From positions 34,252,689-34,316,688 of the forward strand of contig NC_091198.1 of assembly GCF_040958095.1 (NCBI RefSeq): 64,000 nt of DNA, given 5' to 3'. The position numbers and the translations under genes are program-made. The DNA comes from Procambarus clarkii (Eukaryota; Arthropoda; Malacostraca; Decapoda; Cambaridae). Of the stretch, positions 14,003 through 52,423 are shown piece by piece. Each line of letters starts with the position of its first letter. Position 1 is the first letter of the stretch. The notes below the pieces were generated by a model. That model searched no databases. It was given only the letters and a program-made list of their open reading frames with translations, and had not been told where the DNA came from.

Positions 14003-16437
14003 CCACTTAACTGCGCCAACCAAGTATTCTCAGTTGGTGGGAAACTGCGTTGAGAAAACTCTTTTAACCATTTTACCCTCTTTGTACCCATTTTAACACT
14101 TTCGCGCTTTATATTAGAGATAACTCGTCACTGGTTTTTCTTACGATTCCGCATAACTGCCTACTTTTCTCGTCAATCGAAAAAATATTTCTATAAATTC
14201 CATTTTTTAACCGAAATGGATAGGGATACTTTTGTTTTGTAGAGAATTTATTTGCGAATTTTTTGGTACCAGAATGAATATTATATCACATAAACTTCTA
14301 TGAGTAAAAAAAAAATACACAAAGTATGTTTGGGGGTGTGGCGAGCGTGTGGCAGTGGGTTCCCTTTAGCCGTTGATATATCCAACACGTGGGAAATATT
14401 TGTTTATGTATATGTCTGTGTAGGGAATTTTACTGCGATCACTGTCATACAAATTATAAAATGTTTCAACAAGTATAAACATGACAAACATCAAACGAAC
14501 GAAAACAATGCGTTCGTTTCTGCCGCGAACGCATACTGAGCGACGTGGTTCTATATTTGGCGCTTCTCTTACACATGCTTTGTACCAATGTTATACAGTT
14601 CATCTTATAGAAAATTTTATTGCAAACACATTGGTATAAAAAAGAAATACGTACATAGAAAAGTAGGGTCAGGAAACTTATAAACTTTCCAAGCATGATT
14701 TCCCCCCTGTGTTTTCGCCAGTGCGCTCGCGGCTAACTACTCTCCACTTCACACACTCTTGCGGGTGGGCAATTACCTATATTAAACATTCATATGCATA
14801 TGTCCGTGTAGAGAATTTTATTGCAATTCCAATGATACCAAAATTAGCGATGTAGGACAACTGTAGGCTTCACAACCATTAAGAAAGTGGAAACATTTTG
14901 TTGCTGTTTGGCGCTCTCGGCGAGTGATCTGCATAGTTTTTTATTTGGTGTTGATACTCCTTATGCTTGGGCGGCATTTTATAGGTATGCTCTTATAGAC
15001 AATTTCATTGCGAACACAGTGATACCAAATTTAAATACGTGCGCCTTCAATTATTGTCAGGACAGTCAAAAGAGTGTACACTTTTTCGGTCTTACCGCGT
15101 AGGCGCGCGAAGTGCCGAAAGCATCTGGGGTATTGTTTTTTTTTTGAGCGCCGAGAGCGCGAAAGTGTTAAATGTGTGCGCGGTTGGTTGTGTACGAAAT
15201 GGACTCTTAGGACCTCCAGTGAGAGGCAGTCATCTTGGAAAAATTCCCAGAATGCCCTAGGGCTGCTGGGTGGGTTAGTACTGAGTAAGCAACCATGGGT
15301 GGCACACGCGCCTCAGGCTCCAAAACACCTTTCCGAAGCGGTGTGTAAAGATCGCACTGTCGGTGAAATTCAAACCTTATTGTATGAAGAACATGATGGT
15401 CATAATATTGAAGCTAAGCGCAATAAGGACCTAACACAAAGGTCGGATGCAAGTGATACAGCACCTATGAGGACGATACAGCGAGCGTATCCAGTTGTAA
15501 CTCTGAGCGTCACCCTTGCCCACCTATGCTATCTCCAATTTATTTAAGATGACACATAGATGAATCGTTTTCTGCGTTCAGTGATGATGCATCTGATATA
15601 AGTAGCATAGATGAAGTGTTAGTGGTTTCCATGGTGGTGTTTTCCATAGATATTTTCAAGAATAGCTGAATCTCTTCTTGACTGACAGACACTCTTTGAG
15701 GCTAGCTGAATCTCTTCCTGTGTGTGACCTTACAAAGCGATCTTTTCAAGACTACCTTACAAATTTATCTTTTCCTGTAATCTTTTCAAAACTACTTTAT
15801 GTTTTACAAGCTTGGCTACATACCACCTACAGGTACTAATGCCAAGGGTGTAGGTGAGTGCGTTATTTGCAAGCACACAGAACGAAGAAACAGGAAGCAA
15901 AAATCTATCTGTACCTGGTGCAACTGAGAGCGAAGTCGCTCTGTGTACCATGGACTACTTCGTTGATTATTACTCACTTCCGAAGTACTGAGTGTGTAAT
16001 ACAGTGTATTACTGTGTAAATTAGTGTGTGAAACTGTACATAGTGTAGTTTTAGTGAATTTTTAACAAGTAATATTGCGACAATAAACATTTATTGTGGA
16101 CACATGTATCACAGTTCCACGGAACATTATGAACGTTCTACTGTATACATATTGTAAAGGACACAAATATGCATCATATACGATAAAAAAACAACAAATA
16201 AAACTGCATTGGAATTACATAAAACAAATAATTTAAAATATATTTGTGGCAACACCCAGTGTTTGAATGGCACGCGCGACCGTGTCTGGGCATGCCACGC
16301 ACGGGCTACCAGCCCCTGATGACGTCACAGCGCACCTTGTCCACGTCCCTACAGCCAAAGTAAGTGGAATTTGGTATTTATTTTTACATAGACATGTTCA
16401 GGGAAGGGAATTTATCATTTTACGAAGAAAAAAAACA
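14003..16437 (+). mobile_element. piggyBac-B copy 1, decayed, right end lost
   Basis: Starts after TTAA (13999-14002) with CCACTTAACTGCGCCAACC, the same terminus as the complete copy at 32374-33894. It aligns with that copy through about 16430, apart from the piggyBac-A derivative nested in it (14097-15167). Transposase remnants: an acidic N-terminal piece DESFSAFSDDASDISSIDEV (15563-15620) and a Cys-rich C-terminus near 15850-15925 (CVICKHTERRNRKQKSICTW, then C). The DDE core is absent. DIRS sequence replaces its right end from 16438. Confidence 0.82.
14097..15167. mobile_element. piggyBac-A internal-deletion derivative, TTAA-flanked
   Basis: Non-autonomous element of 1071 bp between TTAA at 14093-14096 and 15168-15171. 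Ends are CACTTTCGCGCT and its complement. The left 140 bp match 41404-41540, and the right 930 bp match 43610-44574 of the piggyBac-A at 41404-44574. The transposase region between them is missing. The two copies are very similar, so the family moved fairly recently. It carries four degenerate internal repeats spaced about 188 bp apart (around 14430, 14615, 14805, 14995). Confidence 0.92.
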
Positions 16438-22270: not shown

Positions 22271-23597
22271 TTTGTGAAATTAAGCATATTAGAAATGTGC
22301 GCTTTCTCTTTTCTTTCTTTTGCATTTAAACAGACTGAGCCACAGCAACTAGTGGTGGGTACAGCTAGTGATGATTAAAATAAGTAACTGCAATTATTTT
22401 GCATTGATAGTATCATAGATGATCCTGAGTGTAATAATTATGATGTTCATAACACACTGCGGAGGTTTGTGAATCTAAGCATCATGCAACATGACATCAT
22501 GATCCTTTAGAAAATAATCTTGTGGAAAATTTAAATAAAGATTTAAAAATTTTAACCCTTAAACTGCGCAACGCGCCTGCAGGCTCACGTCTGGTTTGCG
22601 CAACGCGCCTCCGGGTATTTGTATTTTTCACGTTCCATTCAAAACTCCCGCGGCTACATGGGGTTCACATCAGCTTCCTCAGGGCTCTTGTAAACAGACG
22701 CCATCTTTAAAAAAAATCGTGGTCCACATTCCCAGGTGTGGGAGCCTCAGTAGTGTGTGAGCAACCAAGGCTGGCGCTCGCAGCATGAGCGCACAGCACT
22801 GCTGTTCAGCATGTGACCACAGCATCGCCTAATAATGTCAAAATATATATATAACTTGTATTATTTAGCTATGATAGTGTTATATTAGAGCCTGAGTGTG
22901 ATAATGACTGGGTACAATGTTCAAATATCAGTGACTCAATGCTGTTCACGATGTTCACAGCTCTAGTCACAGCACCACAGCATTATTTCGTTCATCTAGG
23001 AATCTTCAAATGATTTCTTAGGTTCCTTTTCAAAATAAACGTGTGGTCAATTATTCATTTACAGGAATTAGTGACCAGGAATGTGATAATAGCAGGATTG
23101 TGGTTATAATTAGCATTGTGCGTAGTACTGTGGAAGGAGGAATTTTGATGAGGGAGGGAGGGCGAGAATTGAGGTAGCCTCATTGTGTGTGTGGCTGCCA
23201 CTCTTGTTTTGCTCTCCATACTAGCTTAGTGGTTCGCTATGGGCAACACATATGTACATGGGAATATATAGTGTGTGTATATAGTGTAAGAACAGCAACA
23301 GGAGAATGTTGAGAGGAGCTATTTTGGCGAGGGAGGTGACGTAATCGTAGCGTCGTCTGCTGTGTGATTTTTCATGCAGTGTATGGTGGCCACTGTACTG
23401 TTTGGACACAATACCGGCTTACTTGCATAGTTCTGGTAAATAAAACATGTAGATAGGTATATAGAACATGTGTAATAAGAACTATAACAATATGGTGGGA
23501 GGAGCAATGTTGGCGAGTAAGATGTTGGAGTGAGGGAGACTGGCTGGTTGTGGCTGCTCTCACTCGAGGTGTTCTGAATGTGTTCATGACCAAATGC

Positions 23598-23690
23598 TCC
23601 TATTGGCCCATACGAGGCAGCTGCTATTGGCCCTTACGAGGCAGCTGCTATTGGCCCATACGAGGCAGCTGCTATTGGCCCATACATAAG
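23598..23690 (+). repeat. 24-bp minisatellite, left array (about 4 units)
   Basis: Direct repeats with core GGCAGCTGCTATTGGCCC plus ATACGA spacing. Separated from the main array by a LINE 3' end that contains one diverged version of the same unit. Confidence 0.9.
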
Positions 23691-23937
23691 AACATAAGAA
23701 CATAAGAACAAAGGTAACTGCAGAAGGCCTATTGGCCCATACGAGGCAGCTCCTATTCTATAACCACCCAATCCCACTCATATACTTGTCCAACCCGTGC
23801 TTGAAACAATCGAGGGACCCCACCTCCACAATGTTACGCGGCAATTGGTTCCACAAATCAACAACCCTGTTACTGAACCAGTATTTACCCAAGTCTTTCC
23901 TAAATCTAAACTTATCCAATTTATATCCAAACGGGGC
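23691..23937 (-). pseudogene. LINE-D 3' end (C-terminus of RT protein and 3' tail)
   Basis: On the minus strand the frame reads FRFRKDLGKYWFSNRVVDLW then NQLPRNIVEVGSLDCFKHG and LDKYMSGIGWL, followed by stop. This is the conserved C-terminal end of a CR1/Jockey-type LINE protein. Downstream, an octamer-like tail of TTCTTATG repeats (23691-23712) marks the 3' terminus. The 3' UTR carries CCTATTGGCCCATACGAGGC, a close match to the minisatellite unit. No other part of this element is present. Confidence 0.78.
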
Positions 23938-24282
23938 AGCTGCTATTGGCCCATACGGGGCAGCTGCTATTGGCCCATACGGGGCAGCTGCTATTGGCCC
24001 ATACGGGGCAGCTGCTATTGGCCCATACGGGGCAGCTGCTATTGGCCCATACGAGGCAGCTGCTATTGGCCCATACGAGGCAGCTGCTATTGGCCCATAC
24101 GAGGCAGCTGCTATTGGCCCATACGGGGCAGCTGCTATTGGCCCATACGAGGCAGCTGCTATTGGCCCATACGAGGCAGCTGCTATTGGCCCATACGGGG
24201 TAGCTGCTATTGGCCCATAGGAGGCAGCTGCTATTGGCCCATACAAGGCAGCTGCTATTGGCCCATACGAAGCAGCTGCTAT
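23938..24282 (+). repeat. 24-bp minisatellite, main array (about 14 units)
   Basis: About 14 contiguous units of 24 bp (core GGCAGCTGCTATTGGCCC) varying mainly at GGGG/GAGG and a few single sites. The unit length is a multiple of three, so several frames stay open on both strands. On the minus strand the frame (YGPIAAAP repeated) runs straight into the LINE-D C-terminus. There are no spacers, so this is not a CRISPR array. Confidence 0.93.
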
Positions 24283-25029: not shown

Positions 25030-25242
25030 GGAGTACTAATAATTTAGATGTTTTATTGAGTGGATTCTAGCAGTAAATGAGCTTTGCACTCTCTCCAGGT
25101 CAGCAATTTCTGCAGCTTTGAATGAGGCTGTTAGTGTGCAACAACATTCCTGTCTAGAAAACACCAGTGTCTTCAAAAGCATCATCACTATTGTGGCATC
25201 TCTTCTTTGAAAGACAAAAGGTGAAACCTTTGAAATTTTCAT
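25030..25242 (-). pseudogene. LINE-C fragment (RT C-terminal region)
   Basis: The minus-strand frame gives DATIVMMLLKTLVFSRQECC and ADLERVQSSFTARIHSIKHL, matching MMILFKTLVLSRMEYCCTM and FTARIHSVKHLNYWDRLKNL of LINE-C copy 2 (60120-59990). The rest of the element is absent; piggyBac-C sits at the TTAA on its left. Confidence 0.8.
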
Positions 25243-25523: not shown

Positions 25524-25589
25524 TTAGCTGTCAGTGAAGTTTGGTTTTCTCTTCTCAACAAATGCAGTCATACCTTCACTACGGTCATT
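25524..25589 (-). CDS. ECHS1: ECHS1 terminal coding exon (mitochondrial enoyl-CoA hydratase)
   Basis: Last coding exon of short-chain enoyl-CoA hydratase, a crotonase-fold hexamer of the mitochondrial matrix. It adds water to trans-2-enoyl-CoA in beta-oxidation and valine breakdown. The 66-nt exon follows a good acceptor (TTTTTCTTCCAG) and reads EGMTAFVEKRKPNFTDS then TAA; vertebrate ECHS1 ends EGMTAFVEKRKANFKDQ, so length and sequence agree. It joins in phase 0 to the exon at 35757-35824. The catalytic Glu residues are encoded by upstream exons outside the window. No disabling change is seen, so the gene is probably functional. Confidence 0.93.
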   Translation of the reverse strand, partial: NDRSEGMTAFVEKRKPNFTDS

Positions 25590-25699
25590 CTGGAAGAAAA
25601 ATAAAAGTAACTAATTCAAGAAATTACAATTATTTTGCAATGACATTTAAATTAGTTTATGACAGCTTACCACAATGAAGATATCAATCCTTAAACCGC

Positions 25700-28600
25700 T
25701 CAATACATATATAGACGATGGGAAGTAACTTTACAGAAACGTCGTCGCGCCGCTGTGCAGCTCCTCCCCTCCCCAGGTGAGGGGGGGTCGGGGGGGAAGC
25801 TCCAGTCCCCCGCATCGGCTATCCACCTCTCAGGTCTAAGATTGATGCTAGAGGCAGAGGTTGTGTGCTCTGGCTCCAGTGATTTTTCAGCACTGTTTAG
25901 AGTGTGGTGGCTGTCTTCTAGGGGGTACGAGAGCCAGGAATTATTCTACAGTACTCGGGCTGCATGCTCCTAGGGTTGCCTTCCCTAGGTGCCCTGTTAG
26001 TACTGCCCTTGGGACTACCTTCCACAGGTTGCTTGGGTCCTGCCTCTGCTGGGCTGTTTAACTGCATGGTTTTTCGGCCTCCCTTTTGGTGCTTGGATGA
26101 TTTGTCTCCCTTGTTTACCTTAGGGTGAGAGGCAGCTTGCACTCGTACAAGGTGCAGGGTGCTGCACAGCTTGTTTTCACCATTCATAGCGGCCGGCTCT
26201 GTTCCCTTGGGTGCGTTGTCCTCTTGCATTTTTTTTCTTTTTGTTTGTGCCTTGTGGGGGAGGTCTGCCTTGCTTGCCCCTTGGTATCTGACCTAATACG
26301 GTTTTCTTCTGGTGGTGCCCCCTGCTAGATCCCTGTGAGTGTACATGTCCCTGAGGTTCAGCTTTAGAATGTTGCTTGGTAGTTTTGGGTGCCGGTTAGC
26401 AGTACCCTGCCTGGGATTCCCTGAGCTTGAGTTCCATCTTAGGACCCTGGGAAACCCCACGGGGGCGCGTGGGTCTGATGGATGTGACCCCGGAGTTCCA
26501 CCCTCGCTTCGTGCAAGTTCGAGGGTTGCTCGGTCCCCTTGTCTCAGGGTGACTCTGTTTTTGCCTGTCATGCTGCCTGTTAGGTCGGTGACACTTTCGA
26601 CCCCGAGTCCTGCTGCTTGCTGGTGATTCAGTTTACCCAGTCTAATGATCATCTTCTACAGGTACAAGTGAGGCAGGCATTGCATGTGCACTTTGGGTTG
26701 TTGCAAAGCGCTCGGTTGGTTGCTCACCCGGATGCCCCGAGGCTGCCCCGTTTTGCTTATAGGGACCGGGACTTGGGGGTGGGGGTCATTTCGACCTTGG
26801 TTCAGCCTGCACCTTCCCTCGTCCTTTCCCCGTTGTGGTTCATCCCGGTCCCCCCACCCCCTCGCCCCTGCTTCTGGCCCCAAAGCGTCTGAGGGTTTTG
26901 GAGTTGGGGCAGGGTTTAGACGGTCTTGAGACTCGGGCAGTCATGGGGAATGTCCCTTCTGGTGTGGCGAAAGAGGCATTCGAGTCCCGATCTCCCTGCC
27001 GCAGCCTCCGAGTCTGACCAGTGGACTCCCTTCCGTCCGGCTTACGAGGCTGTGCCGGCCTTTTCTTTAGAGGCCGGTGCTCTGGTGGATGACTCGGCCC
27101 CATGCCCTGTTGAGGAGGATCCTGGGGTGGGGGAGGGGCTGACTTGGAGGCCTTGGGCCCCGCTGGACCCCGCCTGGATTTTTCTGCCCTCTGAGCTAGG
27201 TTTATTGTTACAAGGAGTGGGGTTCTCTTTTCACCCCTCTGTGTACGAGTTGGATTTGGTGTCTGCCCCTCCCCGGGATCGGTTCCGTTTCCCCCCAGGT
27301 GTGTTGGTTCTTTCTTCCCGGAGGTTTTCGGCTTACCACATCCTACTGTCTGCAGATCGGGCAGGCAGCCCTAGCGGCTTACCTCCTACGTGATCCGGAT
27401 TATGCCTCGCTTATGGATCCGTCTTCTTTCAAGTTTGGGACGTCGTTCCCTTTCTGGGTCCGTTACGAGATTCTGGAGTTGTCCTGGCTGGCAGACTGTC
27501 CTGTTTGCTTTGGAGGCTTGGCATTCCTTCTGTCGTTCCCACACGTTTGAGTGGCGCGAGGCTTCGACGGTGGTTCAGGTTTTCCTGGGGGACGACCTTG
27601 AGCATCTCAATGAGTGCTTGTTTGCCCCTGCCCTTCTCTGGGATGCTGACATCATGCAGCTCCATGTGCAGGTTCCCTCCCTTTCGGCTGCGCACCTTAC
27701 TGAGGACTTGCGCGCCTGTGGCCTCTTGGCTTCGGCCTTGCATTTCTTTTCTCTCCTGGAGCTGTCTTCGTACTGGCTTGCGGAGGATGTGGGGGCGCTT
27801 GTGGCCGTTCCTGGGTTCGGTGCCTTGGGCTCGGCAGCTCACTCGTTGGCTGCCTTGTTGAAGCTCTTTGCGCCGATCTTGCGGGATGCAGTTTCACTGT
27901 TTTATGCTTCCCGGCTTGCGTGTCATGTCGGCAGGTGGTGCTTGCCTCCTCTTTGGAATTGGCCTGGGCCCTGGCTCTTAGGATGTCTTTGCCGTTTTGT
28001 CCACTGCTTTTTGAGGATTCTGCCGTGGAGCAGTATAAACAGGCTGCTTTGGCTACTTGTCACCCTATGTCTGACATGTTGGTTGTTCCGGGGTCCTTGG
28101 GGGACGTTCCCGGAGGGGTTGTGCCAGGGCTCGGGGTTCCTCTCATCACGGAAGGCCACGAGTGCCAGTTTCGGGTCCGGCGCCATCTTCGGACTCGCCT
28201 TCGTCTGGTCGGTGCGGTGGTCGCTCTGTGCGAGGTTCTGGGTCTCGTAAGGGGCACCGGCCTTTTAGCGGTTTACTACATTGACGGAGCGATGGGGGAG
28301 AGGCTTGTGCTGCTCACTCACTCCTGGTCCCACGATTTGTGGGCATTTCATGTCGTTTCTTTCAGCCTGAGGTGGCACTGGGTGGCCCCTCCTCCTTTAA
28401 GGGGGTTCGGGGCCAGCGAGGCAGGCCTCTTCTCCTGTGCTCTGTTGGGTCATCTGAGTGGGTTCGCTTGGGCGTGGTCGAAACAACAACGTCCTTCAGA
28501 TGGGTTTCCAGTCTGTTCCCAGTACTGAAACAGGGATGTGTGGACCTGCAGTTCATTCTGGATTTGTCCCGCCTGAACCCCTGGTTTCATTGCCCCTCCT

Positions 28601-31420
28601 TTTCGGATGACTACGCTGTCCCAGGTTCGGCTTTGCCGGGCTCTTGGATGGTGTCCCTGGACCTCTGGGACGCTTATTGGCCCATCCCGATTCATCCGGG
28701 GTTCAGGGACTGGCTAGGTTTTGTTGTGGGGCGTCAGAGTTACCGCTTTCGTTGTCTCCCGTTTGGGTTGAACCTGGGACCTCGCATGTTCATACGCCTT
28801 ACCCAGGGTCGTTGTGGCCCGTCTGCATCTCTTAGGTGTTCAGGTGTTGGCCTACCTCGACAACTGGCTGGTTTGGGCTCCCAGCCAGTCCTCTTGTCTG
28901 CTAGCCAGGGACTTGGTTCTTTCCCAGCTCGCCGGGTTCGGGTCCCTGGTGAACTGGAGGAAGTCCCATCTGGTTCCCTCCCAGGCTCGAACCTGGCTGA
29001 GTCTTGTGTGGGACTCTCGGACCGCTTCCTCCTGAGTTTCTCCTACAGCTTCGGTCCCGCATGATACTGTTTCTGGGGGGGCTCCCGGGTCACCCGGTGG
29101 TTGCTCAAGGATCTGTGTGGGAGCCTGAACTTCGTGACGATGGTCTACCCACCGGGTTGGGTTTGGCTTCGTTGGCTGTTCTGGTTCCTTCAGGGACATC
29201 CCTTCCGCCTCTCTCGCGATAGCCGAGTTCGGCCCCTGGGGGCCTTGCGTCGGCTGCTGCATCGCCGGCTTCCTCTTCAGGTTTTTCGGGGTTCAATGCT
29301 TTAGCGCCTGCCTGAGCCCTCGCTCGATGTGTTCACGGACGCGTCGTCTCTTGGCTGGGGTTTTGTGACCAATGCTCACCAGGCCGGCCAGGGATGGTGG
29401 TGTCCGTCCTTCTGTCGAGCCCACAGCATACGGTGCGGGAGTTCGCGGCGGTGTAGTTTGCTCTTCGGAGGCTTCAGGTCGCCCATGGATCGACAATCTG
29501 GGTCCATTAGGACTACTCCCCAGTGGTTCATTGCCTGAACCAGGGGGATTCGATGGGGTCCTTGGCTTTTTGGCGCTAGTCGCTTCGGGTGACTTGTCTG
29601 CCGAGTTCTCGGGGTTTGGCTCTCCTGGCTGTTCATGTGCGGGGAGTGTCAAACGTCTTGGCTGACGGCCTGTCTCGTTTCGTTCCCCTGTCTACGGAAT
29701 GGACGGTCAACACCGACTCCTTCCGTTGGCTTTGCCAGACGTTCAGGGCGCCCCGAGGTGAACCTCTTCGCGTCGGCATGGTCGTGGCGCCTTCCTTCTG
29801 TATGTGGCTCCCTTCCCCAATTGCGAGGCCGTCAAGGTCGATGTCTTTCGGCAGGACTGGTTGAGGTTGTCGTTCCTGTACCTCTTTCTCCCGGTTCAGC
29901 TGTTGCTCCAGGTCCTGACTCACTTGGAGACTTACCAGGGGAGAGTAGTCCTCTTGGCCCTGTGGTGGCCGACCCAGCCGTGGTTTCGGGCGCTGCTTGT
30001 CCTAACCCGGAGGTTTTTCCATGGCTCCAGTCTTTTCCAGTAGATCGGACCAGAGCGTCACATGGCTGGTTCGATCTTCTCCTCGAGTCTTCACATATGG
30101 TATTTTATATTCAGGTTTATCATCATCTGTATGGTGATCAGGTGGCTTCCTTATTAGTGTCCCACCTGCGGGCTTCTTCTCGGCGGCAGTATGAAGTTCC
30201 CTGGCGGTCCTTCCGGTTCTTTTTGCGTCTTCGTTGTTGTGCTTTACTGTCTGTTAGGGTGGTGGTGTCCTTTCTCTCTTGGTTGTTCCATGGCGGTCAT
30301 CTAATGCCTAACACTGTCGCCTCGAATCATGCGGCGCTGGCAAAGCTGCTTCAGCTTGCTTTTGATATTGATGTTATGTCTGCACCATTACACTAGCTGT
30401 CTCGTGCATTGTTTTCACCTCCGGCCTGCTCATGCACCGCCTGAGCCGTCCTGGTCATCGGACAGAATGCTCTCTTTTTCTTTCTTCTCTGAGGTTTGTT
30501 GTCGCCCCTTTGTTTCGGGATTGTTTCTCGAAGACTCTTTTTCTGTTCGCATTGGCCTCTGGGGGTCAGGTTGGTGAGCTTCATGCTCTCCTCCAGCACA
30601 AGGGGTTTCTGCTCCTTTGGTCGTGGCTATCGATTTGTTCGTCTGCAGCCGTCTCCTCCTTTTCTGGCTAAGAATGAGACTGCTGCTTTCCGGAGTTTTG
30701 TTGATGCTTGGTTCGTCAGGCCGGGGGTGCATCATGTTCTGTGTCCAGTTGCGGCCCTCTGCCGTTATTTGCACGCCATGGCTTCTGTGTCCGGGGACGT
30801 GTTTTGGGTTGATCCCGTTTCCCTTCTTCCCTGTTCACGGGTGTGGGTCTCCCAGTCGTCTGCAGGGTTGTTAAGGCTAGCCAACCTGCGGTCTATTACC
30901 GTGCCCATGACGTTCGCAAGTTTGCTGCTCTTGCTGCCGTCTTTGGCAACATGTCCTGGGCTGACATTCGGGTGCAGGGATTTTGGCGGTTGAACAGGGT
31001 CCTGGCTGTTCGATATCTCGTGAACATTCCTGGGCCTAGTCGGGCCTGTGTCGCTTTGGGTTGACGGTTGCAGCCAGTTGTCTCGACTTTGAGTTGAGGA
31101 GTGAGCAGGGACTGCCGCCCGAGTAAGTCCCTCTACTTTTCCTCTGTGGGTAGTTAGCTCCGGGAGGCCAACGGGGCTCCCCCCAGAAAACCAGCGTTGA
31201 ATATAATGAAACACCATTTTCTGGGCGAGACCCTGAGGCTCGCCCGCATTCCGTTCCTCCCTCTGGTCGGCGTTTTTTTCGCGTGTTTTGACATCCACCT
31301 TCAGAACTGAAGGGTGGATAGCCGACGCGAGGGTCTGGGTGTCTGTTTAAGGGGTCAAGGGTCTGTTGTTGTTGTTGTAGCCGACCCGGGGGTCTGTTGA
31401 AGTAAAGCTGGCTGCGCCTC
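25700..31420 (+). mobile_element. DIRS-like retrotransposon fossil, largest copy
   Basis: Plus-strand DIRS-order element of about 5.7 kb. Parts in order: 5' non-coding and gag-like region (25740-27900), reverse transcriptase (about 28340-29060), RNase H (about 29290-29700, with a VNVLADSLSR-type match in a sister copy), tyrosine recombinase (about 30000-31065) and the 3' terminal repeat (31180-31420) with the inverted TTGAATRTAATGAAA motif. The coding region is broken in several places and the left terminal repeat is not complete. It lies in the ECHS1 last intron, antisense to the gene. Confidence 0.87.
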
Positions 31421-32145
31421 ACCCAGCCAATAACACTCCCTTACCCTGGGCAAGACTGAAAGCCCTAGACCACCGACATACCCCAAAGGGATAAGACAAC
31501 ATCATGCATGAAGTCCTAAAACGGGGAGTGATTATCTTAACACCCCAAGGAAGATATCCCTGACATGCAAGGGCAGTACTCACTAAGCACCTAAGGAAGG
31601 AAGGTCACCCTAGCCTGTACATTAAGACACCTGGCCACCACACCATACATAGCTGGTACAGCTACACAAGGCAATAATCCAGAACAGGAACTTGTAGCCA
31701 GAGGTGACTGTCTGACCATTAGCACATCAGTTCAAGAACTGGAGTGGTGGGCTGCTGGTTTACCTTCCCCTCTCAAATGGGGGAGGGGGGGATAATGCTA
31801 ACGAGCAGAAGAGCTAGTTGCCGAAGTGTTGCTTGTTGGGGTTCTTTCTAAGGGGAGTTATTTTTATCTTTTCAGATGTAGATTGCACAGGTTAACCAGA
31901 CACGTCCGTTTTGATTCGCCTACTTTTCTGGGTCCTTTCCTGGTCGATGGCAATTATGACATACTTTAAATGTAAAGTGCTCATAGGCCATTGCTCCCTG
32001 CGCCTCTCAGAGGGGGGCCAGGTTCTGGCTCGTAGTCCCCGGTAGGCATAAGGACTCCTGTGACTGATGCCCTTAAACTGATATAGCACATACCAGCTCA
32101 GATAGCTTCAGGGAGCCAATGGGGCTCCCCACATTAAAAGTATTT
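31421..32145 (-). mobile_element. DIRS-like fossil, 5' end fragment
   Basis: Matches the 5' non-coding end of DIRS copies in reverse orientation (compare 56640-57683): gag-proximal blocks, the GGCCATTGCTCCC block, and a closing GGGAGCC...GGGGCTCCCC. It abuts the larger DIRS copy head to head at about 31420. No coding part is recognised. Confidence 0.65.
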
Positions 32146-32307
32146 TTAGGTTAATGTATCTGGATGTCTGGAACAGATTAATTAAATTTACATTATTTCT
32201 TATGGGAAAATTTAATTCGGTGTACAAATTTTTGGATTACGATCCGTCTCTTGGTATGGATAAAATTTACAGACCAAGGTTCCACTATACTGTATATAGT
32301 TTTTTAG

Positions 32308-32369
32308 TGAACAAATCCACAAGAGCCGTCACGAGGGTTCGAACCTATGTCCGAGAGGATCCCAGACAA
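32308..32369 (-). repeat. SINE-3 (tRNA-like) fragment, left of piggyBac-B
   Basis: On the minus strand: GTCTGGGATCCTCTCGGACA, then B-box-like GGTTCGAACCC and CTTGTGGATTTGTTCA. The same sequence occurs in the opposite orientation at 33899. The head abuts the TTAA at 32370-32373. Confidence 0.75.
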
Positions 32370-32373
32370 TTAA

Positions 32374-33894
32374 CCACTTAACTGCGCCAACCGAGTATTC
32401 TCAGTCGACGGGAAACTGCGCCAACCGAGAAAGCTCTTTGATTTTTCGGTACCAATTCTAAATGTGTACAAGGTTGGTTGTGTACAAAATGGACTCTTAG
32501 GACCTCCAGTGAGAGGCAGCCATCTTGGAAAAAAATTCCAGAATGCCCTGGTCAAGGCCTGGTCAAGGACTGGGCTGCGGGGACACTAAAAAACCCCAAA
32601 TCATCTCAAGATAACCTCAAGATAATCAAGCCCTAGGGCTGCTGACTGGCTTAGTACTGAATGAACAACCATGGGTGGCACACGCGCCTCTGGCTCCCAA
32701 ACACCTGTCTGACGCGGTGTTGAAAGATAACGCTCTGTCGGTGAAATTCAAACCTTATTGTTTGAAGAACATAAGGGTCATAATATTGGTGAAGTTAGGT
32801 GCAATAAGGACCTAACACAAAGGTTGGATGCAAGTGATACAGCACCTATGAGGACGATACAGCGAGCGTATCCAGTTGTAGCTCTGAGCCTCACCCTTGC
32901 AATCCTATGCTATCTCCAATTTATTTACATGATACATTGATGAATCGTTTTCTGCTTTCAGTAATGATGCATCTGATACAAGTAGCATAGATGAACAGTG
33001 TTAGCGGCTTCGATGGTGGTGTTTTCCATAGATATTTTCAACAATACCTGAATCTCTTCCTAACTGACTGGACACTCTTTGAGGCAAGCCGAGTCTCTTC
33101 CTGTGTGGGACCATACAAAGTGATCTTTTCAAGACTTCCTTACAAACTGATCTTTTCCTGTAATCTTTTCAATACTACCTTATGCTTTACAAGCTTGGCT
33201 ACATACAGCCTACAAGTACTAAAGCCAAGGGTGTACGTGAGTACGTTATTTGCAAACACACAGAATGGAGAAACAGGAAGCGAAAATTTATCTGTACCTG
33301 GTGCACTGAAAGCGAAAGTCGCGCTGTGTACCATGGACTACTTCGTTGATTATTACTCACTTCCTGAAGTACTGAGTGTGTAATACAGTGTGTTACTGTG
33401 TAAATAGTGTGTGAAACTGTACATATTGTAATTTTTGTGATTTTTAACAGGTAATATTGCGACAATAAACATTTATTATGGAAACATTACAGACACATGT
33501 AATCACAGTTTCATGGAACATGAACGTTCTACTGTATACATATTGTAAAGGACACAAATATGCATCATATACAATAAAAAAATAAATAAAACTGCATTGG
33601 AAATACATAAAACAAATAATTGAAAATATATCTGTGGCAACACTCAGTGCTTGAATGGCACGCGCGACCATGTCTGGGTGATTCACGCACGGGCGACCAG
33701 GCCCTGGTGAGGTCACAGCACACCTTGTCCACGTCCCTACAGCAAAAGTAAGTGGAATTTGGTATTTATTTTTACATAGACATGTTCAGGGAAGGGAATG
33801 TATCATTTTACGAAGAAAAAAGGAATTTTTTGGGAACACTTTATTTCATGCACACCGGGGGGAATTTCACAATAAACTCAGCGCAGCATGGTGG
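32374..33894 (+). mobile_element. piggyBac-B copy 2, both ends present, core deleted
   Basis: Element of 1521 bp between TTAA at 32370-32373 and 33895-33898. Ends: CCACTTAACTGCGCC (left) and CCACCATGCTGCGC (right, complement). It matches piggyBac-B copy 1 in two blocks either side of the sequence missing there. The transposase survives only as an acidic N-terminal trace near 32940 and the Cys-rich C-terminus near 33235-33310 (CXXC pairs around KHTEWRNRKRK). It cannot encode an active enzyme. A SINE-1 3' fragment (32550-32633) is nested inside. Confidence 0.85.
32550..32633 (+). repeat. SINE-1 copy d, 3' fragment
   Basis: Contains GGCCTGGTCAAGGACTGGG, GGGGACACTAAAA and the CTCAAGATAACCTCAAGATAA tail only. 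piggyBac-B copy 1 has GAATGCCCTAGGG uninterrupted at the same place (15251-15263), which sets the insertion, with CCCT repeated at both ends. It inserted already 5'-truncated. Confidence 0.88.
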
Positions 33895-33898
33895 TTAA

Positions 33899-34040
33899 GG
33901 CAGCGTCTGGGATCCTCTCGGACATAGGTTTGAACCCTCATCACGGCCCTTGTGGATTTGTTCATTTGATGCATCACACTATTGTGATTTTCTATGTGTA
34001 TTTTTTTAGTCCCTTGTCAACATCAGTAACTTCCCTGTGT
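33899..34040 (+). repeat. SINE-3 (tRNA-like), right of piggyBac-B
   Basis: Begins at the TTAA (33895-33898) with GGCAGCGTCTGGGATCCTCT, then B box GGTTTGAACCC, CCTTGTGGATTTGTTCATTT and GATGCATCACACTATTGTGA. The head may extend a few bases into the piggyBac end (GCATGGTGGTTAAGGCAG resembles a tRNA A box). The 3' limit is approximate. Confidence 0.75.
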
Positions 34041-34155
34041 GTATGGAGAATGACGACTATCCTACCTACAAAGGAATTCTTCATAGACTTTAACCGTGCT
34101 CCACCAACTCCATACTATACTTGACCTCTATCCAATCTCTACAATATCATATTAA

Positions 34156-35045
34156 CACTTTGGCGTACCCCGCGCGCCACCCCTTAACTGTGCGATTTGG
34201 GTCCCAGGGTGTCACAGGAGCGCGCGTAAATTTTGAAAAGTGTATACTCTCTTCAACTTTGTCACCTTAATTCTCGTCCTACGAGATTAAATTTGGTATC
34301 ATTGTGTTCGCAATAAAATTTTCTACAGCACTAAATGCATATAAACTCCAAAAGCCAGGCTAATTACCCGCAGCAAACAGAGAAAGTGCGAATGAGTTAC
34401 CCAGGAGCGCGCAAACGCGATAAAATGTTTTCACTATTTTCACTCTGGTCACCTCAATTTTCGTCCTAGGTCTTTCATTTTGGTCTCAATGGGTTCGCAA
34501 TAGAATTCTCTAGAGGAACATTAGCATATAAAATAAAAAACCTGGTCACGCTCCAACCGCCGACGAGTTGAAGACGGGCCACGCGTTAGCCGCGAGTGAG
34601 CGCTCAGACGCCTTCCAGCTACATTCCCAATTCCCGCCCCTTTCAAGCCTTTCTTTCGCAATTTTCTTCCTGGAAAGGCCTTGTTCATGATCACTATCCA
34701 TCGTGGAGTAAGCGTAGATAGTTTCTAAAGCCGCAGTAAGAAATATAGCCACGGAAAATAGCAGAAATGTTCACACGTTTGAGATGCGAGGGGAGGCGAC
34801 ATTGGTCACAACAGTGGAGCGAAAACAATGGGCCCACGGCGTGTGCCAAGCCGCCTGAGGGCCACGAGGCTCAACAAAGAAAATGGGAAGACATCGGCGC
34901 CCATTTTAAAACCAGTCCCCCCAAAACTGGATAAAAACCTGATTTTTGGCGATTATTTAAAGTGGATGACACAATGCTGCGTCATCCCCGGTATTACCGC
35001 CAGTAAACGGATGACGCAATGCTGCGTCATGCCCGGGCGAAAGTG
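34156..35045. mobile_element. piggyBac-type MITE (family D), 890 bp, TTAA-flanked
   Basis: Between TTAA at 34152-34155 and 35046-35049. Ends CACTTTGGCGTACCCCGCG (left) and CACTTTCGCCCGGGC (right, complement). No transposase. Two copies of the shared internal motif lie on the minus strand (near 34290-34325 and 34475-34515). Near the right end the sequence GATGAC.CAATGCTGCGTCAT occurs twice (34964 and 35011). Lies in the ECHS1 last intron. Confidence 0.85.
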
Positions 35046-35169
35046 TTAAATTGGGTATTAATTTTCAATAAGACATTGCCACATTTTTTCTCTCCTGATT
35101 AATACAAGATTCAGTATTGCTGGGATATAAAGTTATCTTACTCATACTTTCCTTTAGAGGTAGATACAC

Positions 35170-35295
35170 AAATGCCCTCAGGCTAGGGCACTTATGCCCT
35201 AGTCTGAGGGCATTTATGAATCTGCGACTAATTTATGTATCGGCGACATTTACGTATCTGAGACTAATAAGTGCAAACAAACTGCACTTATTAGT
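35170..35295. repeat. Two adjacent hairpins in the ECHS1 intron
   Basis: Hairpin 1: arms 35170-35190 and 35195-35215 (21 bp, one mismatch, 4-nt loop). Hairpin 2: perfect 13-bp arms ACTAATAAGTGCA (35263-35275) and its complement (35283-35295), 7-nt loop. No coding sequence. Could be relics of small inverted-repeat elements. Confidence 0.75.
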
Positions 35296-35756
35296 GAGGT
35301 GTTGGAGGCACACTTCATACATAACTTCAAATTCAATTAACGAAGCCTAAAAGGCTTGGGAACTTGTACACTGTTGGTTTTAAGTTTAAAATGCAGGCCC
35401 AAAGAGTTGATGCTGAACCCCCATAAGTATAAAAATGTTAAAGCACATGCTACTTCAGGCTATTTCCTGTTCTTCCCTGTGCGTGACCGGTCAACTGGTA
35501 CTACACACATCATCTTAAATTTTCAGTCACACCAGAATAAGTGCGACAGTGGAATCCACAAAAATTTACATGGATGCTGCCTCCATTCACAACTTTAAGA
35601 GCAAATACAGCACAAAACCTAAACACGAGATTTAATAGCTTACTACAGTAGACATAAAAAAAGCTTGGAGGCAGGGCATATAGGGATAAATCACATTCAT
35701 CATTGTCACTGATAGATAAGATAGGCACACTCACAAATGGTAATAAATATACTCAC

Positions 35757-35824
35757 AGTAGCAAAGGTGCAATGGAACAATCTCTTCTCAAAGTGGAGGC
35801 CTTCACTCAGAGGTAGCTCATAAG
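35757..35824 (-). CDS. ECHS1: ECHS1 penultimate coding exon
   Basis: 68-nt exon on the minus strand with acceptor TTTTACACTTTCAG and donor GTGAGT. After two bases completing the previous codon it reads YELPLSEGLHFEKRLFHC then TFAT, matching vertebrate ECHS1 (FEMTLTEG.KLEKKLFYSTFAT). It continues in phase 0 into the terminal exon at 25524-25589, giving an unbroken C-terminus. This part forms C-terminal helices used in subunit packing of crotonase-family proteins. No upstream ECHS1 exon was found to the right in this window, so the preceding intron runs at least 28 kb. Confidence 0.93.
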
Positions 35825-41399: not shown

Positions 41400-41403
41400 T
41401 TAA

Positions 41404-44400
41404 CACTTTCGCGCTTTCGAGTAGAGATAACTCGTCACTGGTTTTTCTTACGATTCCGCATAACTGCCTACTTTTCTCGTCAATCGAAAAAATATTTCTA
41501 TAAATTCCATTCTTTAACCGAAATGGATGGGGATACTCTCAGATTGTTCTCCATGAAATTCCCGTTCTCCCTCACCGAACACATGGCATCTCGGCCTACC
41601 CAGTCACGTGGTCGGCCCATTGTTTTGTTGACACGCCAAGTGCCCACACTGTGCTCCCCTCTCGCGGCAAACGTGACCCGTTTTACGCATTTATTTCCGT
41701 TCCGTTTCCGTTCTCGTGTACCTAAAACCCATTCAATACCTTCAACATGGATGCTGCACCAGGAACAAGCAGTGGAACGCAAAACAAAGGTAGGAAATCT
41801 AGGAAAGTAGAAGAGATCGCCAGGATTTTCGATCTGTATCGTGGGGTCAATCTCACTCCATCCAAGATTCCCGACGTTGTTGAAGCCTTTTCAGGGTCTT
41901 CTGATGATGATTTGGAGGCTGACGAACTGGAAAATGATGTTCTTTATGAGGTTTCCTCAAGTGATGAAGATATTTCGAGTGAGAGTGAGGATGAGAGTGA
42001 TGAAGAAGCCCCAGCCCCGCCACGCGGTGACCGCACGTGTCCGGTACCAAAGAGGGCTAGGCTGGGTGATGAGTGGAATCGTAGCAATACTCCTCCCATC
42101 GTTGATAACTTTACTGCAACCCCTGGCCTAACAGTTCCACTACCTGCTACTCCATTGCAGTTTTTACAATTATTTTTCACTAGAGCAGTGGTTGAATACT
42201 TAGAGTATGAAACAAATTTGCATGCCACACACGTCATACATCTCATGGCTGAGTCAGCAAGAAAAACGTGGAAACCAGTGTCGGTGAAAGAAATGGCCCG
42301 ATATTTGGCCCTGTGCATACTGATGGGCATAGTGAAGATGCCTACAATGAGGATGTACTGGCAGACGAATCAGATGTGGCATTGTCGATTCTTCAACTTG
42401 TTTATGTCGTCTGCTCGGTTCCAACACATTTCTAAGTTCTTCCACATGTTTACACATGTGGCACACTTAGACTACAACGTGGCGCCCCCAAGGATCTGCA
42501 ACAAGTTGTAAAGGGTAAAATGGCAACCGACACGACCGTATACATGCGTAAGGATAACACCTTTGTTATAGTTTGGAAGGACAAGCGCCCCGTCTCTGTC
42601 ATCACCAATATCCACAATGCCGACACTACTCAAGCACAGCGCAGGAAACGCGTTCGTAAAGGTGACGGGAGAACTGGAGTAGAAACTGTGAAAATGAACA
42701 AACCCAAGGCCATAGTGGATTACAATAAGTTCATGAAAGGTGTTGATCATTTTGATCAAATGGTCAAATATTATGAGTTTGCAAGAAAAACCCACAAATG
42801 GACCAAGAAGATCACTTTCTATTTTCTGCAAATGGCCATGCACAATGCATACGCATTGTATAACCACTACTCAACAGATACAAAAAAACTAACACTATTA
42901 GAGTTTCACGCAGTAGGAATAAAAGCCTTATTGGCGTGGAACAGCAAGGAATGGCCAACAACAACAAGTATACCACATGTTCCCGACATAGATGCCAGCG
43001 CAACTCCTCCTGCTGACGCGGCAGTTTCAACACCCGGGCCATCTGGTGCTAGGCGTCCTCTGTTCACCTCAACACCTCAAGCCCACTCATCAACCACAAA
43101 TTCTGAAATGGACATTGAGGACATAGAACCACTTGATGTTTCTGATTTCATAGAAGATTCTACTACAAGTTTGGTGGTTCCTGTAGAAGACAATATTCTT
43201 CCAGTGAATCCAAAAAATACAAGAATTATAGATTCAGAACAACGTCTCAACTACAAGTTGACGCATGAACTCGTGCACTTGGCTAAAAAAAAAAGATGCC
43301 GTGTTTGTTACAAGTCTGGCAAAAGGAGGGACGTGATATATGGATGTAAAACTTGTGATGTGGCACTGTGCGCTGCGCCTTGCTACACAAGGTACCACCG
43401 AAGAAAGATATTTTGGGTGGAGAAAAAATAACCACCGGCAACAGCTTCACTCCACCTAAGAAACATCAGATGAGCAACTTCAGGATCAGAAGCCTGAAGA
43501 TGGTGGAGTGAAGAAAAAATGCTCAACTGTTGATCTTCAATCAACATAGACAGGGTAAGTACACCTATTTGGAATTTTTTATCATCTATAAGAAGTTGTA
43601 TTATATACGTTTTGTAGAGAATTTATTTGTGAATTTTTTGGTACCAGAATGAATATTATATCACATAAACTTCTATGAGTAAAAAAAAAAAACACAAAGT
43701 ATGTTTGGGGGTGTGGAGGGTGTGGCTCTGGGTGTGGCGGTCGTGTGGCAGTGGGTTCCCTTTAGCCGTTGATATATCCAACACGTGGGAAATATTTGTA
43801 TGTGTTATGTATATGTCTGTGTAGGGAATTTTGCTGCGATCACTGTCATACAAATTATAAAATGTTTCAACAAGTATAAACATGAGAAACATCAAACGAA
43901 CGAAAACAATGCGTTCGTTTCTGCCGTGAACGCATACTGAGCGACGTGGTTCTATATTTGGCGCTTCTCTTACACATGCTTTGTACAAATGTTATACATT
44001 TCATCTTATAGAAAATTTTATTGCGAACACATTGGTATAAAAAAGAAATACGTACATAGAAAAGTAGGGTCAGGAAACGTATAAATGTATAAACTTTCCA
44101 AGCATGATTTCCCCCCTGTGTTTTCGCCAGTGCGCTCGCGGCTAACTACTCTCCACTTCCCACACTCTTGCGGGTGGGCAATTACCTATATTAAACATTC
44201 ATATGCATATGTCCGTGTAGAGAATTTTATTGCGATTCCAATGATACCAAAATTAGCGATGTAGGACAACTGTAGGCTTCGCAACCATTAAGAGAGTGGA
44301 AACATTTTGTTGCTGTTTGGCGCTCTCGGCGAGTGATCTGCATAGTTTTTTATTTGGTGTTGATACTCCTTATGCTTGGGCGGCATTTTATAGGTATGCT

Positions 44401-44574
44401 CTTATAGACAATTTCATTGTGAACACAGCGATACCAAATTTAAATACGTGCACCTTCAATTATTGTCAGGACAGTCAAAAGAGTGTACACTTTTTCGGTC
44501 TTACGCGTAGGGGCGCGAAGTGCCGAAAGCATCTAGGGTATTGATTTTTTTTGAGCGCCGAGAGCGCGAAAGTG
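41404..44574 (+). mobile_element. piggyBac-A, 3.2 kb, TTAA-flanked, inserted in LINE-B
   Basis: Between TTAA at 41400-41403 and 44575-44578, with ends CACTTTCGCGCTTTCG and (complement) CACTTTCGCGCTCTCG. Removing it and one TTAA restores the LINE-B sequence seen at 50920-50945, apart from point differences. It encodes a transposase on the plus strand (41747-43431) with an internal deletion. It also has an unusually long 3' subterminal region (43600-44574) carrying four degenerate repeats about 188 bp apart. The derivative at 14097-15167 is made of this element's two ends. Confidence 0.94.
41747..43431 (+). pseudogene. piggyBac-family transposase (DDE_Tnp_1_7), core deleted
   Basis: N-terminal half (41747-42511, 254 codons): acidic DDDLEADELENDVLYEVSSS region, then SARKTWKPVSVKEMARYLAL and CILMGIVKMPTMRMYW, the usual fold start. 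C-terminal half (42523-43431): VIWKDKRPVSVITNIHNAD, VDYNKFMKGVDHFDQMVKYY with the third acidic residue, and a Cys-rich C-terminus CRVCYKSGKRRDV..CKTCDVALC. The central segment bearing the first two catalytic Asp residues is missing at about 42490-42520, and a stop ends the first half. Intact family members are about 550-600 residues; this one cannot cut DNA. Confidence 0.9.
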
Positions 44575-44578
44575 TTAA

Positions 44579-46463
44579 TGTGGTCCTCAGGGCGACAGTT
44601 TTCTATCTACAACCACCCCTAGATCCCTTTCTTTGTCAGAATTCTTTAAAGATTTCTCACATAATTTATTGGTTGTGTGGGGTCTATGTTCTCCAATTCC
44701 ACATTAAATAACATAGCATTTATTCACATTAAATTCCATTTGCCAAGTATTGCTCCATATACTTATTTTGTCCGGGTCTTCTTGAAGGGCATGAAAATCA
44801 TCTTATCTTACCTATTATCTTAGCATCATCAGCAAACACATTCATGTAATTCTGTATTCCCACTGGCATATCGTTTATGTAGACAATGAACATTACCAGT
44901 GCAAAACTGAACCCTGTGGTACTCCACTCGTGACATTCCTCCAATCCGATACCTTGCCTCTGAATACAGCCCTCATTTTTCTGTCAGTTAGGAAATTTTT
45001 CATCCATGTTAGTAGCTTACCTGTCATCCCTCCAATATGTTCCAGTTTCCAGAACAACCTCTTATGGGGAACTCTGTCGAAAGCCTTTTTTAGGTCCAGA
45101 TAGATGCAGTCAACCCAACCATCTCTTTCCTGTAAAATCTCTGTGGCTCGATCATAAAAACTGAGTAAGTTCGTTACACAGGATCTTCCAGTTCGAAAAC
45201 CATACTGTCTGTCTGATATTACATCGTTTTCCTCCAGGTGTTCTACCCATTTAGTTTTAATTATTTTTTCCAATATTTTCACTATTACACTTGTCAATGA
45301 TACAGGTCTATAATTAAGGGGGTCTTCCCTGCTTCCACTTTTGTAGATTGGAACTATGTTAGCCTTTTTCCACACATCAGCTACAACTCCTGTACACAGG
45401 GATGCGTGAAAAATCAGTTGAAGTGGAATGCTGAGCTCAGTTGCACATTCTCTCAGAACCCATGGTGAAACTGCATCTGGACCAACTGCTTTGTTCTTAC
45501 TTAGCTCCTTGAGCATTTTTTCCACTTCGTCTCTAGACACCTCTATGTGCTCTATGTTATTCTCTGGAATTCTTATTGTGTCTGGTTCCCTACAGATTTC
45601 ATTTTGTACAAACACACTTTGGAACTTTTCGTTTAGTGTTTCACACATTTCCTTTTCATTTTCCATGAATCTATTTTCCATTTTCAACCTCTGAATATTA
45701 TCCTTTACCTGTAATTTGTTGTTTATGAATTTATAGAATAGACCTGGTTCTGTTTTACATTTGTCTGCAATCCCTTTTTCAAAATTTCTTTCTGCCTCTC
45801 TCCTCACTGCAGTGTAGTTGTTTCTCGCATCTTTGTATCGTTGGTATGTTTGGGGGTTTGGCCTCTTCCTGTATTGATTCCATTTTTGTGTCTTTTGGTC
45901 TCTGGCCCTCTCGCAATTTCTATTGAACCAATCCTGTTTCCTACTTCTGCATCTCTGTTTTGGTATAAATTTTTTTGTGCCTTTATCATATATTTCCCAA
46001 AACTTAACATACATCTCATTCACTTCCTTGCCTAGTAACAAGTCTGTCCAATTATACTCGCTAAAAAAATTTCTAAGGTTGCCATAATGTCCTTTCCTGA
46101 AGTCAGGTTTTCAACTGCTTCAACCTCCTTATTTTCTTCCAGATTATAACACATTGCATACTTTATTCCCAAAAAGACATGGTCACTTTTACCCAAGGGA
46201 GGAAGGTACTGAATGTCAAATCTCTCTTCCTCCTTCCTGGTAAATATCAAATCTAGCATGGAGGGAACGTCCCCTTTCCTCATCCTCGTAGCTTGCTTAA
46301 CATGTTGATACAAGAATGTTTCCAGGATGAGGTCTACAAATCTACAGGTCCAAAAATCTTCTGTTTTAGCTTCATATGCTTCCCAGTCTATGGATTTCAA
46401 GTTGAAGTCACCGACTATCAACAGTCGTGATCTATCATTATCCACTCTCGCTATAATCTCTCT
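44579..46463 (-). pseudogene. LINE-B endonuclease C-half and reverse transcriptase
   Basis: From 46463 downward: endonuclease motifs VGDFNLKSIDWEAYE, SMLDLIFTRKEEERF and LGKSDHVFLGIKY. The RT frame (46041-44893, 382 codons) follows with NYRPVSLTSVIVKILEKII, YGFRTGRSCVTNLLSFYDRA, palm motif A YLDLKKAFDRVPHKRL (Asp intact) and GVPQGSVL. After GVPQGSVL one base is missing relative to the plus-strand copy, and the FADDAKII motif continues in another frame. The reading stops at the TTAA of piggyBac-A. Confidence 0.9.
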
Positions 46464-49392: not shown

Positions 49393-49398
49393 TCCACC

Positions 49399-51512
49399 AT
49401 TATGGTGACCCTAGAAATTTTTTCAGTGAGTATAATTGGACAGACTTGATGCTAGGCAAGGAAGTGAATGAGATGTATGGCAAGTTTTGTGAAATATATG
49501 ATAAAGGCACAACAAAATTTATACCAAAACAGAGATGCAGAACTAGGAAACAGGATTGGTTCAATAGAAATTGCGAGAGGGCTAGAGACCGAAAGACACA
49601 AAAATGGAATCAATACAGGAAGAGGCCGAACCCCCAAACATACCAGCGATACAAAGATGCGAGAAACAACTACACGGCAGTGAGGAGAGAGGCAGAAAGA
49701 AATTTTGAAAAAGGGATTGCGGACAAATGTAAAACAGAACCAGGTCTATTCTATAAATTCATAAACAACAAATTGCAGGTAAAGGATAATATTCAGAGGT
49801 TGAAAATGGGAAATAGATTCACGGAAGATGAAAAGGAAATGTGTGAAACACTAAACGAAAAGTTCCAAAGTGTGTTTGTACAAAATGAAATCTTTAGGGA
49901 ACCAGATACAATAAGAATTCCAGAGAACAACATAGAACACATAGAGGTGTCTAGAGACGAAGTGGAAAAAATGCTCAAGGAGCTCGGTAAGAACAAAGCA
50001 GCTGGCCCAGATGGCGTTTCACCATGGGTTCTGAGAGAATGTGCATCTGAGCTCAGCATTCCACTTCACCTGATCTTTCAGGCATCCCTGTGTACAGGAA
50101 TCGTAGCAGACGGGTGGAAACAGGCTAACATAGTTCCAATCTACAAAAGTGGCAGCAGGGAAGACCCCCTCAATTATAGACCTGTATCATTGACAAGTGT
50201 AATAGTGAAAGTATTGGAAAAACTAATCAAAACTAAATGGGTAGAACACCTAGAGAGAAATGATATAATATCAGACAGACAGTATGGTTTTCGATCTGGA
50301 AGATCCTGTGTATCGAATTTACTCAGTTTCTATGATCGAGCCACAGAGATATTACAGGAAAGAGATGGTTGGGTTGACTGCATCTATCTGTACCTAAAAA
50401 AGGCTTTCGACAGAGTTCCACATAAGAGGTTGTTCTGGAAACTGGAAAATATTGGAGGGGTGACAGGTAAGCTTCTATCATGGATGAAAAATTTTCTGAC
50501 TGATAGAAAAATGAGGGCAGTAATCAGAGGCAATGTATCAGAATGGAGAAATGTCACAAGTGGAGTACCACAGGGTTCAGTTCTTGCACCAGTGATGTTT
50601 ATTGTGTACATAAATGATCTACCAGTTGGTATACAGAATTATATGAACATGTTTGCTGATGATGCTAAGATAATAGGAAGGATAAGAAATTTAGATGACT
50701 GTCATGCCCTTCAAGAAGACCTGGACAAAATAAGTATATGGAGCACCACTTGGCAAATGGAATTTAATGTTAATAAATGTCATGTTATGGAATGTGGAAT
50801 AGGAGAACATAGACCCCACACAACCTATATATTATGTGAGAAATCTTTAAAGAATTCTGATGAAGAAAGAGATCTAGGAGTGGTTCTAGATAGAAAACTA
50901 ATAGAAAACTATCACCTGAGGACCACATAAAGAATATTGTGCAAGGAGCCTATGCTATGCTTTCTAACTTCAGAATTGCATTTAAATACATGGATGGCGA
51001 TATACTAAAGAAATTGTTCATGACTTTTGTTAGGCCAAAGCTAGAATATGCAGCTGTTGTGTGGTGCCCATATCTTAAGAAGCACATCAACAAACTGGAA
51101 AAGGTGCAAAGACATGCTACTAAGTGGCTCCCAGAACTGAAGGGCAAGAGCTACGAGGAGAGGTTAGAAGCATTAAATATGCCAAAACTAGAAGACAGAA
51201 GAAAAAGAGGTGATATGATCACTACATACAAAATAGTTACAGGAATTGATAAAATCGACAGGGAAGACTTCCTGAGACCTGGAATTTCAAGAACAAGAGG
51301 TCATAGATTTAAACTAGCTAAACACAGATGCCGAAGAAATATAAGAAAATTCACCTTCGCAAATAGAGTGGTAGACGGTTGGAACAAGTTAAGTGAGAAG
51401 GTGGTGGAGGCCAAGACCGTCAGTAGTTTCAAAGCGTTATATGACAAAGAGTGCTGGGAAGACGGGACACCACGAGCGTAGCTCTCATCCTGTAACTACA
51501 CTTAGGTAATTA
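49399..51512 (+). mobile_element. LINE-B fragment, plus strand, 5'-truncated, nested in LINE-A copy 3
   Basis: The flanks ATTCCACCA and ACCAGGGAACGCACTTCC are contiguous in LINE-A copy 2 (7728-7750), giving clean limits and a 3-4 bp duplication. It begins just after the endonuclease and ends at the LINE-B 3' terminus (CTTAGGTAATTA), as expected of incomplete reverse transcription. Very similar to the minus-strand LINE-B it lies within. Confidence 0.93.
49405..51481 (+). pseudogene. LINE-B reverse transcriptase, plus-strand copy
   Basis: Two frames: 49272-50930 (552 codons, the first 44 or so being antisense LINE-A) and 50939-51481 (180 codons). RT motifs: GPDGVSPWVLRECASELS, NYRPVSLTSVIVKVLEKLI, YGFRSGRSCVSNLLSFYDRA, GVPQGSVLAPVMFIVYINDL and FADDAKIIGRI. 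Palm motif A reads YLYLKKAFDRVPH where the minus-strand copy has YLDL; the catalytic Asp is replaced by Tyr. The C-terminal frame includes FVRPKLEYAAVVWCPYLKKH and FANRVVDGWNKLSEK. One frameshift lies near 50930. Confidence 0.92.
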
Positions 51513-52400
51513 CCAGGGAACGCACTTCCGTGGACCCCGAGAGGAAGAGCGAGGAATAGAGCGGAGGGCAGCGTTGAAGACAGTGTCATGAAAAAGGAGG
51601 AGAGCGCGAGAGAGAGGCAGAAGGGAGAGGTCAGAGAGAGCAGCACTGAGGGTAAATAGGGTCCAGTCTGCCTTAGCAAACTGCCACCTAGGGAAAGAGA
51701 GGGAAGGGCGAAAAGAGAAAAAGGAAACAAGGATGGGGAAATGATCACTTCCATGGAGGTCATCAAGAACCTGCCACGTGAAATCTAAGTAAAGAGAAGA
51801 AGAGCAGAGAGAAAGATCAAGACAAGAAAGGGTGCGAGTCCGAGAGTCCAAATGAGTGGGCTCACCAGAATTCAGAAGAGACAGGGAAGAAGATAGGAGA
51901 AACGGCTCAAGGAGGCGACCCCGGGTATTCGTCAGAACGTCACCCCAAAGAGAATGACGACAATTGAAGTCACCCAGCAGGAGCACAGGCTCCGGCAAGG
52001 AGTCTAGAAGGTGTTTCAAATCAGGAAGAGAGAGCGGGACACTCGGGGGGAGATAAATGGAACAAACTGTGTACCATTTCCCCACAAAGATACGAGCAGC
52101 AGAACAATGGAGATGCGAAGGAAAAAGTAAAGGAACAAAGGGAACATCTGCACGAATCAAGAGAGCAGAAGAATTAGAAGCCCCAGCAATGGCTGGGGGG
52201 GGGGGGAGAAAGGAATAGCCACGAAAACGACCAGGACGAGCACCAAGCATTGGCTCCTGGAGACAGACACAAAGGGGCGAAAACCGCGAAATCAGAAGTT
52301 GGAGTTCGAGGAAATTGGCGTAATAACCTCGAACGTTCCATTGAAGAATGGACAACGACGAGAAGAGAAAGGACAAAAACAGAAAACAAGGAAGAAACAA
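51513..52400 (-). pseudogene. LINE-A endonuclease, copy 3 (domain intact)
   Basis: APE-type endonuclease opening ORF2, open from 52400 to the LINE-B insertion point. Active-site motifs are all present: ILQWNVRGYYANFLELQLL (Asn), CLQEPMLGARPGR (Glu), LLGDFNCRHSLWGD, TLSCLDLSLCSSSLYLDF and HGSDHFPILVSF. This is the only copy in the window with the complete motif set. ORF2 is then cut by the nested LINE-B fragment, so the protein could not be finished. The G run at 52196-52206 borders the PPPP stretch. Confidence 0.9.
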
Positions 52401-52423
52401 AGGCGAAAGAGCAACAGAGCACG

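Follow-up and report, generated by a model that had tools for sequence, protein, structure and literature searches.

Two minus-strand exons assigned to ECHS1, separated by a repeat-bearing 10.2 kb intron, in a 64 kb window of the Procambarus clarkii genome

Proteins of the ECH_1/ECHS1 family share a crotonase core with catalytic glutamates and an oxyanion hole, and the bacterial crotonases are encoded without spliceosomal introns. Human ECHS1 is described as a gene of eight exons (PMC6025059), for which the available parts of two sources give different locus sizes, 11 kb (PMC6025059) and about 41.3 kb (PMC12351961). Exon border positions of the human gene were not found stated in the literature searched, as far as the texts were available, including PMC6025059, PMC12351961 and PMC7193542. 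In crayfish, the accessible part of a study on a growth QTL names an enoyl-CoA hydratase just as a candidate gene (PMC8886229). Here, we describe two coding exons that lie within a stretch of 64,000 nt from P. clarkii, called the window in the following, and that delimit one intron:

35824..35757, minus strand: ECHS1 penultimate coding exon (exon A), 68 nt, encoding (A)YELPLSEGLHFEKRLFHCTFAT
25589..25524, minus strand: ECHS1 last coding exon (exon B), 66 nt with the TAA stop, encoding NDRSEGMTAFVEKRKPNFTDS and the stop
25590..35756, minus strand: intron between exons A and B, 10,167 nt, GTGAGT...CAG

Exon A starts in phase 1 and finishes in phase 0, with CATATTATTTTACACTTTCAG just before it and a GTGAGT donor just after it. 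A pyrimidine-rich tract ending in CAG lies just 5′ of exon B. The GTGAGT donor, the CAG acceptors and the compatible exon phases correspond to the GT...AG borders of spliceosomal introns. Joined at the phase 0 junction, the exons yield an in-frame C-terminus of 44 residues, AYELPLSEGLHFEKRLFHCTFAT followed by NDRSEGMTAFVEKRKPNFTDS and the stop, with the initial G coming from the unseen upstream exon. All 44 codons are intact, and the stop occupies the same position as in human ECHS1. If the frame of exon A is instead continued beyond the donor site, a stop follows after 39 residues. In strand and order, both exons are collinear with the ECHS1 protein. The initial annotation had proposed exons at these coordinates with good splice sites and matching phase, had assigned them to ECHS1 and had placed a transposon-filled intron of 10.2 kb between them. 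We recovered both exons at the same positions, with canonical borders and an in-phase junction, and the intron holds degraded repeats.

The joined peptide shares 29 of its 44 residues with human ECHS1, 13 of 23 in exon A and 16 of 21 in exon B. Its best match among solved structures, searched with phmmer, was human ECHS1 (2hw5_A, residues 243-285; E 1.6e-13), followed by 8zru. The animal paralogues that this search listed were far behind, with E-values of 0.0032 for AUH (1hzd) and 0.76 for ECHDC3 (2vx2). The peptide also matched Pfam ECH_1 with 35.4 bits (cut-off 27), as expected for the C-terminal sequence of a crotonase. In the mitochondrial enzymes of human and rat (2hw5, 8zru, 1dub, 1mj3, 1ey3) the C-terminal 44 residues are homologous and share the end point, whereas the copy in the window is known here from its C-terminus alone. 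The homologous C-termini of bacterial crotonases such as EchA8 (3pzk, 3h81) are nearly as similar: the phmmer scores were 52.5 bits for human ECHS1, 50.8 bits for EchA8 (E about 6e-13) and 49.5 bits for the rat protein. Judged by the peptide alone, mitochondrial ECHS1 and bacterial EchA8 are not separable. The coding sequence in the window is, however, split by an intron, unlike those of the bacterial crotonases, and it is this split rather than the peptide itself that marks a nuclear gene of a eukaryote. Together with the whole-window searches described below, the phmmer and Pfam matches confirmed, at the level of sequence, that the two minus-strand exons are a real gene fragment and that the assignment to ECHS1 is correct.

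We searched the whole window in two ways. In a tblastn search with full-length human ECHS1 (of which residues 28-290 are identical to 8zru_A), the two exons ranked first and second with 37.7 and 33.1 bits, and the third match reached only 22.7 bits (E 0.78). A crotonase profile, combining residues 29-290 of human ECHS1 with 80 bacterial relatives, was run against the 2762 stop-free six-frame pieces of the window with at least 12 residues. The exons again ranked first and second (26.4 and 15.3 bits), ahead of a piece with 5.7 bits (E 1.3). Neither search found exons for the crotonase core with its catalytic glutamates and oxyanion hole in the window, nor the 5′ end of the gene, where an N-terminal mitochondrial targeting peptide would lie. 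As a side observation, the genome entered as Bacillus subtilis SK6B4 carries an enoyl-CoA hydratase that ranked with alphaproteobacterial ones (57% to human), and this genome is possibly mislabelled.

Upstream of exon A, the window contains 28,176 nt in which neither tblastn with human ECHS1 nor the crotonase profile found a further ECHS1 exon. To estimate the power of this search, pieces of human ECHS1 (residues 31-246) were altered at random and planted into stretches of window DNA, and a trial counted as passed if any piece reached at least 7.6 bits, the 5% level of randomised windows. At 66% identity, planted exons of 15, 20, 25, 30, 40 and 60 residues passed in 16, 65, 99, 160, 190 and 199 of 200 trials; at 55% identity, the respective numbers were 9, 26, 61, 100, 154 and 200. 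These counts are somewhat generous, as a trial could also pass on a piece other than the planted one and the profile includes human ECHS1. The searches would probably have picked up an upstream exon of ordinary size, and a very short one could escape. The preceding intron is therefore likely to be at least 28 kb long, as the initial annotation had put it, although that length falls short of proof: it would fail if a short exon had escaped or if the locus were only a 3′-end fragment of a gene.

That a short exon between 35825 and 64000 was missed, which would make the preceding intron shorter than 28 kb, appears unlikely. The modest recovery of planted exons of 20 and 25 residues leaves room for it, but both real exons, with 23 and 21 residues, were detected, planted exons of 40 residues were recovered almost always, and the third matches in both searches had E-values close to 1. 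Such an exon would be compatible with the reading preferred below and would alter only the length of the intron. Far less room is left for chance similarity or a processed pseudogene, in favour of which we found nothing and which we consider practically negligible and rejected as explanations. When the window was randomised 100 times with a first-order Markov model, the top score was 9.8 bits and no randomisation reached 15.3 bits, hence neither exon's score; the best score in the reversed window was 7.7 bits. A processed copy would have no intron, whereas one is present here between the exons.

The reading we consider highly probable is that exons A and B would be spliced together across the 10.2 kb intron, that the remainder of ECHS1 would lie beyond position 64000, and that the insertions between the exons would be intron passengers, taken out by splicing. 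The coding match, splice sites and phase were observed in the window, where no other exon was detectable; that this copy is transcribed, spliced and functional would be expected from these features. Against it stand the fact that the complete gene is not seen and the 28 kb upstream without a detected exon. The same gap, in a repeat-dense window of which 63% is similar to another place within it, could speak for a partial duplicate, in which the 3′ end of ECHS1 and its intron alone were copied here and are unexpressed. We regard this as very unlikely, as exons, splice sites and stop are all intact, and exons this similar to their human counterpart need no special event as explanation. Nevertheless, 44 intact codons would also be compatible with a young non-functional copy.

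Of the intron between exons A and B, 41% is similar to other parts of the window, counting matches of at least 100 nt. The same measure gave 63% upstream of exon A, 71% downstream of exon B and, as above, 63% for the whole window. Within the intron, three features were delineated:

28285..29061, plus strand, antisense to the gene: weak reverse-transcriptase fragment (Pfam RVT_1, 24.1 bits, below the cut-off of 29.6)
29593..30393, plus strand: possible N-terminal fragment of a tyrosine recombinase (Pfam Phage_int_SAM_4, E 0.07, 14 bits, cut-off 27)
32308..33964, no strand assigned: unit of about 1.66 kb with 60-nt inverted repeats (93%) at its bounds

The reverse-transcriptase fragment and the next frame have what we take to be a DIRS-like look, and of the combination of reverse transcriptase and tyrosine recombinase that defines this type, both parts would be represented by weak matches below the cut-offs. 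None of ten frames compared with Pfam, nine from the intron (seven on the plus and two on the minus strand) and one at 37 kb, scored above a cut-off. The unit at 32308..33964 is either a transposon whose ends are terminal inverted repeats or a short repeat present twice in opposite orientation; inside it, 32630-33821 is 89.6% identical to 15254-16433.

Ten further frames outside the intron comprised five with reverse transcriptase (above cut-off), two with DDE_Tnp_1_7, one with RNase H and two with no Pfam match. The DDE_Tnp_1_7 transposase is presumably of the piggyBac type. We take the element at 41400-44578 to be piggyBac-like; each of its ends carries TTAA and CACTTTCGCG, and its DDE_Tnp_1_7 transposase is split over two frames (profile positions 1-91 and 229-349). 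A copy of 1.08 kb at 14093-15171 shares its ends and appears to be a non-autonomous derivative. The LINE-like copies at 44597-46089 and 49398-50899 are oppositely oriented, 92% identical across 1.5 kb and possibly recent insertions; the latter lies within a frame that stays free of stops over 562 residues and has a reverse transcriptase. A repeat of about 255 nt occurs at 7979-8233 and 10799-11053 and partially at 2-141, and is probably a tRNA-derived SINE because one copy contains a tRNA-Thr call (10804-10875, ARAGORN). At 7979-8233, it splits a LINE-like copy whose counterpart at 51512-52858 has no such interruption. A 24-nt tandem repeat extends over 23596-24282, in blocks at 23596-23685 (3.8 copies) and 23927-24282 (14.8 copies, 96% matches), and is open in two frames per strand. 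Rfam yielded no matches at gathering scores, and viral contigs scanned with one LINE protein from the window gave no match.

On the 3′ side of the stop, a scan for the two motifs AATAAA and ATTAAA placed the first base of the closest minus-strand AATAAA at 25057, 466 nt away. This motif falls within a repeat fragment, and the relative at 60 kb has AGTAAA at that site:

25038..25212, no strand assigned: LINE-like repeat fragment just downstream of the stop, 80.6% identical to 60005-60179

The fragment would be LINE-like because the surroundings of its 60 kb copy match another reverse-transcriptase element block by block. The blocks 9551-9995 and 10273-10778 correspond, in matching order, to 59767-60213 and 60775-61265, and reverse-transcriptase frames lie beside them (10221-10898 beside 9551-9995, and 60930-61715 beside 59767-60213). 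With rather low probability, ECHS1 may use the motif at 25057 as a transposon-derived poly(A) signal, besides having over 38 kb of intron filled with repeats around its 68-nt exon.

For comparison, the available parts of two decapod genome reports give mean intron lengths of 6,992 nt for Cherax quadricarinatus (PMC10106460) and 6,251 nt for Panulirus homarus (PMC12120130), with repeat shares of the genome of 78.7% and 69.7% (the latter from PMC12120130), respectively; the accessible text of PMC7821229 gives no mean intron length. These are means without distributions and serve as a yardstick only. Measured against published means of 6-7 kb, introns of 10 kb or even of more than 28 kb would be long yet ordinary in such genomes. 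As in the human gene, the coding sequence is divided among several exons, but here a single intron alone takes up 10.2 kb.

The fragment belongs to an ordinary animal housekeeping gene of metabolism. Introns full of mobile elements would spread its exons apart, the usual situation in large genomes rich in repeats, and our general view of ECHS1 or of genome architecture is unchanged. The fragment is useful for annotation: the two ECHS1 exons anchor a window dominated by repeats to a known nuclear gene, and most of the right-hand half of this window is probably intron.
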